Assembly (NCBI GenBank): GCA_024278695.1
Contig: JAJRSR010000131.1
Span: forward strand, 1-41,338
Length of the DNA: 41,338 bases
DNA from: Planctomycetota bacterium
GTDB lineage: Bacteria > Planctomycetota > Phycisphaerae > UBA1845
Direction of reading: 5' to 3'
Below are positions 38,033 to 41,028 of this stretch, piece after piece. The translations under genes were made by a program, and so were the position numbers. Position 1 is the stretch's first letter. Every line of letters starts with the position of its first letter. The notes under the pieces are model-generated. The model worked only from the letters and a program-made list of their open reading frames with translations. It did no database searches and was not told the origin of the DNA.

Positions 38033-38548
38033 CTACTCCCCACATGGCGACACGAGCACCGGTTCCGTTAGCGTGTAGATGTCCGTTGACGCATCGTCGT
38101 CGCTGTCGTTCTCGTCGTAAATGGCCGACTCTGCCGTGAACTCGATCGTAATCTCCTCCGTACAATTCCCACGAAGAATCGTCAATATCACCAGATCCGG
38201 CATCGGAAAAACGGCACGGGCAGGACACGGCGCAACAAACGAAGCGCCTTGGGCCGTGAAATTGCCATCTTCGTCGGGAAGCGGATGATTCGGTGAACCG
38301 TTCCCCCTCAAAGCTGGTTCGCCACCTAAGAGTTCTCCAGCTAGGAAGGTTCGTACCCCAAAGACGACGTCCGAAGCCGGTTCAAGCGTCACAGAATCGA
38401 CGAACCGCCCATGAATCGATAGCGATGCAGAACAGTCACCCCTCAGCAGTAAAAAGTATGAACATCCGGAAGATGGAACCAAAACAACAAACAGGACTAT
38501 ACAGAACTTGAATACTCGGGCGTTCTGCCTGATTGTTCGGACATTCAT
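38033..38548 (-). CDS. Predicted lipoprotein, paralogue 1
   Basis: A 171-residue lipoprotein. Signal segment FKFCIVLFVVLVPSSGC, lipobox SSGC. The mature start has GRFVDSVTLEPASDVVFGVR, resembling the first strand of carboxypeptidase-regulatory/peptidase-associated beta-sandwich domains (G-x-V-x-D-x(n)-P-x-x-D-V). It ends TLTEPVLVSPCGE. The next gene upstream encodes a paralogue with a matching middle (LPxxDGxF, PDxVxLxIxRGxCxEEI) and end. ATG 38548 follows GGAG at 7 bases. No function can be assigned. Confidence 0.75.
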   Translation of the reverse strand: MNVRTIRQNARVFKFCIVLFVVLVPSSGCSYFLLLRGDCSASLSIHGRFVDSVTLEPASDVVFGVRTFLAGELLGGEPALRGNGSPNHPLPDEDGNFTAQGASFVAPCPARAVFPMPDLVILTILRGNCTEEITIEFTAESAIYDENDSDDDASTDIYTLTEPVLVSPCGE

Positions 38549-38589
38549 GGCTTCGCTCCACTGCATTGGTCCCTGAACCAACCGCTGAT
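38545..38589 (-). pseudogene. 15-codon relic of the Cys-rich secreted protein's C-terminus
   Basis: Reads ISGWFRDQCSGAKP then stop, identical in protein to the last 14 residues of the gene ending at 39134. At the four differing codons the differences are synonymous (GGG/GGT, GAT/GAC, TCA/AGT, GGT/GGA). It directly precedes paralogue 1, with its stop overlapping the paralogue ATG, as in the intact copy. It lacks any upstream coding sequence. Confidence 0.7.
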
Positions 38590-38600
38590 CTGGCATGACC

Positions 38601-39137
38601 CTACTCCTCACACGGCGACACGAGAATCGGTTCCGTGATGGTAATGGTTTCCGTGCGCAACACGGATTCCTCCAGCACCACCGTACGAACGACCGACTCG
38701 TTGGCGATATCCAACACAATTTCCTCGGAACAGGCACCGCGCACGATAAGCAACGTCACGATGTCTGGGTCTGGAACACTGGACGTCGGCGGGCAGCCAC
38801 CACTTTGCGAGTCGAGAAAAAAGCTGAAGCCGCCGTCCGCTTCGGGTAGAGGATTTGTGGGTTCTCCGGCTTCCGTCGTTGGGCTGCTAAATCGTATCAC
38901 TTTGCCATCGCGTTCGGCCCGAATACCAAGAAAAACATCGGTGGCCGGCGCAAGCGTGACCGCGTCAACAACCCGCCCTTCAATCGGAAGTTGTGACCAA
39001 CAATGGCCACCCTCAAACGGGAGGAGAAAAAACAAGCACCCTGAAAGCGGCAACAATACAAATAACACTAAACCACCTAACCGGACAAACCACTGTCGCC
39101 GCAGGGTGGGCATTCTTTTCTTAATTGGATACTTCAT
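38601..39137 (-). CDS. Predicted lipoprotein, paralogue 2
   Basis: A 178-residue lipoprotein. Signal: RRQWFVRLGGLVLFVLLPLSGC with lipobox LSGC. The mature protein has GRVVDAVTLAPATDVFLGIR, NPLPEADGGF, PDIVTLLIVRGACSEEI and ends TITEPILVSPCEE, parallel to paralogue 1. The beta-rich pattern suggests a carboxypeptidase-regulatory-like domain. ATG 39137 overlaps the TGA of the Cys-rich secreted gene (ATGA), so they are co-translated and perhaps work together at the cell surface. Confidence 0.75.
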   Translation of the reverse strand: MKYPIKKRMPTLRRQWFVRLGGLVLFVLLPLSGCLFFLLPFEGGHCWSQLPIEGRVVDAVTLAPATDVFLGIRAERDGKVIRFSSPTTEAGEPTNPLPEADGGFSFFLDSQSGGCPPTSSVPDPDIVTLLIVRGACSEEIVLDIANESVVRTVVLEESVLRTETITITEPILVSPCEE

Positions 39138-40537
39138 GGCTTCGCACCTGAGCATTGATCCCTGAACCACCCGCTAATCGCACACGAGGCGTCACCGCTA
39201 ACACACTGGAAACCATTGGTGTAATACTGAGCGGTATGCAGCGCCCCACACGAATGAGCCATCTCCTGAAAGACGGTATTGGCACAACTACAAGGATCTA
39301 GGCTGGCTCCCTCGCAATACCAGTTTCTCGTGCCACCTAGGCTACAACCACCGGCGTTGCCGCAAAACCCGCAATCGCTTCCACTCTCACAGGTAATCCG
39401 CGTACGCGAAAAGGATGATCCACTGCACCCACAGCGTCCTTTCATGCACTTCCTAAATCCGATGGAGACGTTCGGGATGTCGCCGATCATCTGGCAAAGA
39501 TCCACCAATTGATCGCTGCACGAGATGCGGTCGTTTTCGCAGGACTGACCCGTGCCGTCTGGGATGCTCGGACCGAGGCAAGTGACCGGCGGCGTGTAGG
39601 GTCTTGGGATGTCAAGAATGTAATTGATCAGAAGCTGTCCCACGTTCCCGATGAAGGAGATGATGGTCCCGAAAAAACTCGAATGTCCGGCCACGGCACC
39701 GCCGCTGGTGTCCAGGTTGAACATGTTCCCCACCGCCTCCTGAAACCCCGCCTCCGAGGCCGGGTCCGGCAGCGGACCGGTCGCGTCGGAATAGGTCCAG
39801 CCGCCCGTGTAAACCGTCGTGGCCCCCAAAGCCACCACATGGGTCATGACACCGTCAAGATGCAACGTATCACCCTCTTGCCACAGGTTCATCACCAGCG
39901 TCCATCCCTGAGTGACGCCGCCCACTAACGGATCCCCGTCGGTCACGTCAAACGTCATCGAGACGCTATCCGCCCCCGTCCCGCACGCCACGGAACTCGA
40001 ACCCGAACGCACCGTAGCTGTGTCGCCGAAAACAAGCAGCGCAGAATCCCCGCCGGTGGCGCTGGGAACGGGCATGCCGATTTGCAAATTCGCGCCAAGA
40101 CCCTCCGCCTCGACAAACGCGAGCAGCCCCTCCTGCATGTCGGCCAGCGCCGTCGCGATCGAGCCGTCGCAACAGGCACCACCTATCGGCGCAAAGAAGC
40201 AGGCACCGTAGCTACAGCTATCGGCCGTACACGGATCACCATCGTCGCACACAACGCCCTCGCACGAACCCGGCGGCGGCTCCCCGTCATCACAAGGCAC
40301 GCAGAACACCAACCCGCCGGCGATCGCCACCAGATCGTTCGCCTTAACGCCGCTACCCGGTGCGACCGGAAACGACACGCTAACCGGTCCGGAACCGGCG
40401 AAAGCTGCTTGAGCGCCGGTGCAACTACCGGGAACGCAAGCAGCGGCCTGCATGAAGGACGCATCCGGGTGATGCGGTAGGTTGCTGTTGGGGTAGGCAC
40501 GGGCGAGCCTCCCGATCGCCTGGCGCGTGGCCGGCAC
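39134..40537 (-). CDS. C-terminal segment of the Cys-rich secreted protein (frame C)
   Basis: The longest uninterrupted piece of the broken gene, 467 residues from a GTG at 40537. Cysteines cluster at residues ~79-126 (including CDDGDPCTADSC) and in the last ~140 residues, consistent with an extracellular, disulfide-rich protein. The GTG is not a natural start: the frame remains meaningful upstream, to about 40600. The middle part is Gly/Thr-rich (VACGTGADSVSMTFDVTDG) and looks like a beta-rich domain. Confidence 0.55.
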   Translation of the reverse strand: MPATRQAIGRLARAYPNSNLPHHPDASFMQAAACVPGSCTGAQAAFAGSGPVSVSFPVAPGSGVKANDLVAIAGGLVFCVPCDDGEPPPGSCEGVVCDDGDPCTADSCSYGACFFAPIGGACCDGSIATALADMQEGLLAFVEAEGLGANLQIGMPVPSATGGDSALLVFGDTATVRSGSSSVACGTGADSVSMTFDVTDGDPLVGGVTQGWTLVMNLWQEGDTLHLDGVMTHVVALGATTVYTGGWTYSDATGPLPDPASEAGFQEAVGNMFNLDTSGGAVAGHSSFFGTIISFIGNVGQLLINYILDIPRPYTPPVTCLGPSIPDGTGQSCENDRISCSDQLVDLCQMIGDIPNVSIGFRKCMKGRCGCSGSSFSRTRITCESGSDCGFCGNAGGCSLGGTRNWYCEGASLDPCSCANTVFQEMAHSCGALHTAQYYTNGFQCVSGDASCAISGWFRDQCSGAKP

Positions 40538-40882
40538 CCAGCGACCACCCCCAATCGCCCATCCAACCTTCGCCCATCCCGCATTTGCGACGAAGGCGCT
40601 GCGGTCATGGCGTCGGCGAACGGCGCGTGGGCCTGAAGCATCGCGTCAATAGCCACGTCGAACTGACTTTCCAGAGCAATCAACATCTGCGCGGCATCAT
40701 TCGACTTCGTTAGAAAGTGCGTGAGAAGAAACAGTTGCTGTTGAGACTGGTCCCACCAAAGGGCGAACAAGGGCGCTTCACCGTTGAAGCTGGAATCGGC
40801 AGCATTGAGATCGACAACACCTGCGGGTTGCGCGAACGCCTCATACAATAAGAGCGTCCCCTGCGGGGCTATGATACGAACG

Positions 40883-40893
40883 CCCCCCCCCCC
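40883..40893 (-). repeat. 11-base poly-G tract in the secreted-protein gene
   Basis: Eleven C on the plus strand (G on the coding strand) sit ~104 bases after the start, where the reading frame breaks. Such tracts slip in replication and sequencing. Confidence 0.9.
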
Positions 40894-41028
40894 GCAATGG
40901 CCACATCGGCAGCGCGCACCTGCGTTGTCGATCCGGCCGAGATTGCGGCGAAAGCCGCGACCAGCGATACACATCCACGTCGTTTGGTCATACTCATCAA
41001 AGCAGCTCCTTCGTTGAAAGCAGACACG

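Follow-up and report, generated by a model that had tools for sequence, protein, structure and literature searches.

A probable displaced toxin-type 3' stub before a lipoprotein gene in a planctomycete gene array

The short sequence between two lipoprotein genes of a Planctomycetota bacterium (Phycisphaerae; UBA1845) is, as the original prediction held, a true remnant of a second Cys-rich gene. It is probably a displaced toxin-type 3' stub that stayed behind, before a retained and probably immunity-type lipoprotein gene, when the toxin tip was replaced in an array of the polymorphic-toxin type; such an origin has been proposed for CDI/Rhs immunity strings. The remnant is homologous to the end of the intact Cys-rich gene, its lost parent was constrained at the protein level and was lost recently, the two lipoproteins are sisters, and stubs of this kind recur in other genera. 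The toxin and immunity functions, and the tip replacement as an event, are what we infer.

The window is the whole stretch of DNA that was analysed, positions 1-41,338 of contig JAJRSR010000131.1 (assembly GCA_024278695.1, a genome of 3.55 Mb). The genes are all on the minus strand, in the order Cys-rich ORF, lipoprotein 1, relic and lipoprotein 2. The features are as follows.

39135..40537, minus strand: Cys-rich secreted protein ORF (P0001), with a C-terminal zincin-like, probable toxin domain.
39236..39268, minus strand: QEMAHSCGALH, aligned with the zinc motif HExxHxxGxxD of the close relatives (from alignments, with coordinates computed from P0001 residues 424-434).
39134..39187, minus strand: intact tail of the parent type, SCAISGWFRDQCSGAKP followed by TGA; it overlaps the ATG of lipoprotein 1.
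38601..39137, minus strand: lipoprotein 1 (P0002), lipobox PLSGC, a predicted TTR-like beta-sandwich and probable immunity protein of the current toxin.
38545..38598, minus strand: relic or stub SCQISGWFRDQCSGAKP plus TGA, the 3' tip of a probably displaced second Cys-rich gene.
38033..38548, minus strand: lipoprotein 2 (P0003), lipobox PSSGC, sister of lipoprotein 1 and probable orphan immunity protein.

The 14-residue C-terminus ISGWFRDQCSGAKP followed by TGA was predicted to occur twice, each time overlapping a lipoprotein ATG, and it is indeed found at 39137-39178, the 3' end of P0001, and at 38548-38589, the 14 certain codons of the relic. Both TGA codons overlap the ATG of the next lipoprotein gene (CC-ATGA), and the relic directly follows the stop of lipoprotein 1 (TAG, 38603-38601). 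Within the 14 codons there are seven nucleotide differences, and all seven are synonymous, including the predicted Ser TCA/AGT change; seven randomly placed changes give zero amino-acid change in 2.5e-5 of trials. The match of 14 residues stands, but its extent had been set slightly short, as the homology reaches 17 codons with 16/17 residues identical and 11/51 nucleotides different. The added upstream match is SC-x (TCATGC/TCGTGT), and the tail similarity stops sharply upstream of TCATGC. The single non-synonymous codon of the 17 (GCG/CAG, A to Q) is located at the junction, which may itself account for the change. In the other two frames no more than 10/17 and 9/17 residues are kept, and therefore the Cys-rich frame is the constrained one. 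No ATG, GTG or TTG is present in the relic frame downstream of its upstream TGA. The sequence GGAGTAGGGT, at or after the stop, is common to lipoproteins 1 and 2, and the junction is therefore placed within the next few bases.

The search of the genome and its relatives proposed together with the prediction was carried out; in the 3.55-Mb genome, a degenerate pattern and a protein search gave only two matches to ISGWFRDQCSGAKP and no third copy of the tail. Gene conversion and a short dispersed repeat, named beforehand as explanations opposed to the prediction, were both looked for and neither was found: the repeat is ruled out by the presence of two copies only in the genome, and recent conversion by the saturated synonymous differences.

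Selection at the protein level on the parent, also predicted, is borne out by the Nei-Gojobori values. The tail has dS 1.54 and dN 0.11, against dS 1.75 and dN 0.61 for lipoprotein 1 versus lipoprotein 2, where dS is a lower bound on age only, as synonymous sites are near saturation. The synonymous proportions of tail and lipoproteins are alike and the non-synonymous ones differ (Fisher p = 3e-5, rounded counts). With dS values so close and dN values so different, the parent that was lost must have been constrained at the protein level during almost the whole divergence. Zero amino-acid change in 14 codons leaves room for at most 1-2 neutral changes, so that the loss was recent and the copy became a relic late. 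The 16 identical tail residues of 17, beside lipoproteins that are 41% identical, exceed what would be expected from the ratio between genera (an expectation of 60% gives P about 0.002), which hints at extra constraint or at an earlier conversion of the tail.

The two lipoproteins are paralogous and are sisters in the tree (support 100/98), and therefore the tail and the lipoprotein belong to one unit. A signal peptide and a lipobox are present in the family, with the lipobox Cys34 invariant in 12/12 aligned members. The lipoprotein model (pLDDT 82) has a beta-sandwich like those of TTR, carboxypeptidase-regulatory and intradiol-dioxygenase domains; the fold comparison gave Z of at most 7.8, and it is therefore a common arrangement only, with no function indicated. 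No Pfam or NCBIfam family was matched by the lipoproteins above cut-off, and matches to Imm45 and CarboxypepD_reg were below significance and were rejected. By guilt by association, the lipoprotein is probably an exported immunity protein. Published immunity proteins are mostly cytoplasmic, and the fact that the partners here are lipoproteins counts against this assignment.

The Cys-rich proteins have a common C-terminal domain with the core CMKGRCGCGGS. The zinc motif HExxHxxGxx(H/D) is found in six close relatives as HExxHxCGxxD, but not in the window copy, where QEMAHSCGALH has Gln for the first His and His for the Asp; to judge by these substitutions the window copy may be catalytically dead. 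No Pfam or NCBIfam family was matched by the domain above cut-off. Its low-confidence model, built from seven sequences (pLDDT 67, lower in the motif region), matched no solved fold, and the best match of the profile against the PDB was a metzincin, a weak one with E 0.31. The domain occurs behind different N-terminal regions, as in polymorphic toxins, and the Rhs core is among them: Rhs_assc_core (TIGR03696) precedes it with 53.6 and 37.9 bits in genomes G010 and G066 (cut-off 32.5), and in both the next gene codes for a lipoprotein of the same family. The Cys-rich proteins of G021 and G012 had no Rhs match. In G109, from another family of the same order, YD repeats are followed by the C-terminus HEMSHNCGTLD, with the Rhs core below cut-off. 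By guilt by association, the Cys-rich domain is probably a metallopeptidase tip of a polymorphic toxin, probably antibacterial.

Several further observations were made on these genes. The upstream parts of P0001, to about 40997, are located in other frames; the gene is apparently frameshifted twice 5' of its conserved domain (window 40880-40997 and about 40607, minus strand), near 40886 and near 40607, the first in a run of 11 G. Real decay, phase variation or assembly error may be the cause. A similar frame change is present 5' of the Cys-rich domain in G024. The YD-repeat protein of G109 (L096:669-3213) is followed by an unrelated lipobox-bearing protein, and the two may make up another pair of toxin and exported immunity lipoprotein. 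In G030 (L085:6161-6241), an isolated piece from the middle of the Cys-rich domain (DECSCGGSNHKRSRITCDTPDDCGPCG) is found in a 40-aa open frame and is apparently a dead copy.

With the Cys-rich domain and the lipoproteins as queries, the pair of Cys-rich protein and lipoprotein turned up in about ten members of the family to which the source genome belongs (Phycisphaerae/Planctomycetota MAGs) and hardly outside it; a phylum-wide sample of 392 genomes gave no further members outside the source genome itself. In all adequately assembled loci (9/9) a lipoprotein of the family lies 3' of the Cys-rich gene, which is the toxin-immunity order. Strings of lipoprotein genes are present, with two here, three in G009, three in G061, two in G071 and at least four in G021. 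The G021 contigs C95 and C312 possibly adjoin each other within a single array, but they showed no overlap and were not treated as adjacent.

The recurrence of such stubs in other genera, and the probable toxin-immunity nature of the locus, go beyond what the original prediction saw. Further Cys-rich tails are located between lipoproteins in two other genera, ending in ...EEACRIGDWFEDQCMEKPK (G021a), ...CGKFDDPDCVPTSGCPSPDPDLFTGSCRIGYWFNDQCCGDDK (G021b) and ...SRWFDEQFGERNPNIECVL (G071). With a profile built from seven intact tails, the E values were 3.5e-11 for G021b, 3.7e-8 for G021a and 5.1e-8 for the window stub (0.0025 once its own tail was left out of the profile), with a weak 0.08 for G071; the same profile found no stubs in the spacers between lipoproteins of G009 and G061. 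Every stub sits 3' of one lipoprotein stop and 5' of the next lipoprotein, but the point of the tail at which the stub starts differs from one to another (about 17, 26, 43 and 20-30 codons). They are 14-43 codons long and have no HExxH motif, short of the usable toxin length of an orphan CT/immunity module. The window, G021b and G071 stubs have no start codon and the lipoprotein genes downstream are open, as in displaced fragments. Stub b of G021 scores 119 against the tail of G024 and 42 against the tail of its own genome, and in the tree the lipoprotein that follows this stub joins those of G024 and G009, with weak support (58/89). The G071 stub, identical at 33/54 nucleotides and 10/19 residue positions, has no protein constraint. 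In addition, the G021a stub (L029:11830-11925) is a 31-codon ORF with ATGA overlaps with both neighbouring lipoprotein genes, and in G071 (L084, about 500-700) an extra inverted repeat (CAAGATCCCGCCCAACTGCGGGATCTTG) is located between the Cys-rich gene and the first lipoprotein gene and is absent 5' of the second.

Under tip replacement, a second, diverged toxin tip would once have been a functional 3' end 5' of lipoprotein 2. A new toxin tip together with lipoprotein 1 would have arrived via recombination or unequal crossing-over, within the toxin gene or close to it, displacing the old tip; alternatively, the old tip could have been deleted after duplication of the module. What was left would be the last 14-17 codons, abutting the stop of lipoprotein 1 and overlapping the start of the retained lipoprotein 2. 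The original prediction called for two intact two-gene modules in tandem. Such modules are possible and fit the data, but they are not required: no searched genome of the order has more than one intact copy, and a 3' tip with its lipoprotein, replacing the tip of one gene and pushing the old stub and lipoprotein downstream, gives the same sequence. Both histories fit, and the pattern in the family agrees better with tip replacement. Full tandem duplication of the unit of Cys-rich gene and lipoprotein, with both copies long intact and selected and the body of the second recently deleted just after the stop of lipoprotein 1, is a rather unlikely explanation that still carries some weight. It accommodates the same constraint data and the sister relationship of the genome's own lipoproteins, and the occurrence of GGAGTAGGGT after both lipoprotein stops fits duplication of a unit. 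However, two intact Cys-rich genes were found in no genome searched, the deletion endpoint would have to land repeatedly just after a lipoprotein stop, and the toxin lineage behind stub b of G021 differs from that of the toxin retained in the genome.

A partial tandem duplication of the last ~17 codons and the lipoprotein would account for the junction in one step, the stub never having been part of an intact second gene and being neutral from birth. The unconstrained G071 stub would suit such an origin. It is nevertheless very improbable for the window stub, with its saturated synonymous and almost absent non-synonymous divergence, as neutral drift over dS 1.75 would scramble the peptide; nor are the G021 stubs most like the tail of their own genome. 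A functional element, either a mini-ORF or an extension of the upstream lipoprotein by frameshifting, maintained because its peptide or translational coupling matters, is just as hard to credit. The G021a ORF with overlaps on both sides would agree with it, and the window copy retains both the stop-start overlap and the peptide. However, the window, G021b and G071 stubs have no start codon, the G071 stub is unconstrained, and the frame relative to the upstream lipoprotein varies (-1, -1, +1, +1) with no slippery site seen. A translated mini-ORF or programmed frameshift was rejected for the absence of starts and the inconsistent frames.

Where immunity genes form strings downstream of a polymorphic toxin, they have so far been read as remnants of tip replacement mostly from gene order. 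In the present arrays the scars are visible in the DNA, where the starts of retained genes still carry stubs of earlier tips, and this is physical evidence for the proposal that toxin tips are swapped while the old immunity genes are kept. The synonymous and non-synonymous changes in the window stub show that selection acted on the displaced tip until a recent time. A broader proposal is that one planctomycete lineage has a family of Cys-rich zincin toxin tips, not described before, whose immunity partners are exported lipoproteins, and that 3'-tip stubs of earlier toxins can still be read in its loci; in our estimate this proposal is about evenly balanced. If the functional reading is true, a metallopeptidase-type tip would be paired with an exported lipoprotein partner, neutralisation would take place elsewhere than in the usual cytoplasm, and past replacements of toxin tips would be preserved in the arrays as in a fossil record.

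Displaced orphan CT/immunity modules and their arrays have been described (PMC4927057, PMC3967940), and for polymorphic-toxin loci the displacement of an old tip by an incoming one has already been published (PMC3482391, PMC4927057). Like the present stubs and lipoprotein genes, orphan rhs-CT/rhsI and cdiA-CT/cdiI modules (PMC3967940, PMC4927057) consist of a toxin 3' fragment without start signals and a retained immunity-type gene, located 3' of the main toxin gene in the same orientation and in tandem arrays. Unlike those modules, the stubs here, of 14-43 codons, are too short for reuse as a toxin, the intervening DNA had no transposase or integrase that was noted, the partners are lipoproteins and most host proteins are neither Rhs nor CdiA. 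Zincin domains at the C-terminus of Rhs proteins have been described as a toxin class, Tox-MPTase (PMC3482391). Tox-MPTase1-5 of RHS proteins (PMC3482391) also have an HExxH C-terminal domain after the Rhs core, as in G010 and G066 and, divergently, G109. The present domain apparently differs in the Cys-rich core CMKGRCGCGGS with HExxHxCGxxD, and it matched no curated family model. The toxin-immunity gene order, and strings of immunity genes as leftovers of tip replacement, were described in 2012 (PMC3482391), where several paralogous genes also lie downstream of each toxin in that order and tip replacement was proposed. In the present arrays, unlike those strings, the DNA at the start of the retained genes still shows what is left of the replaced tips.
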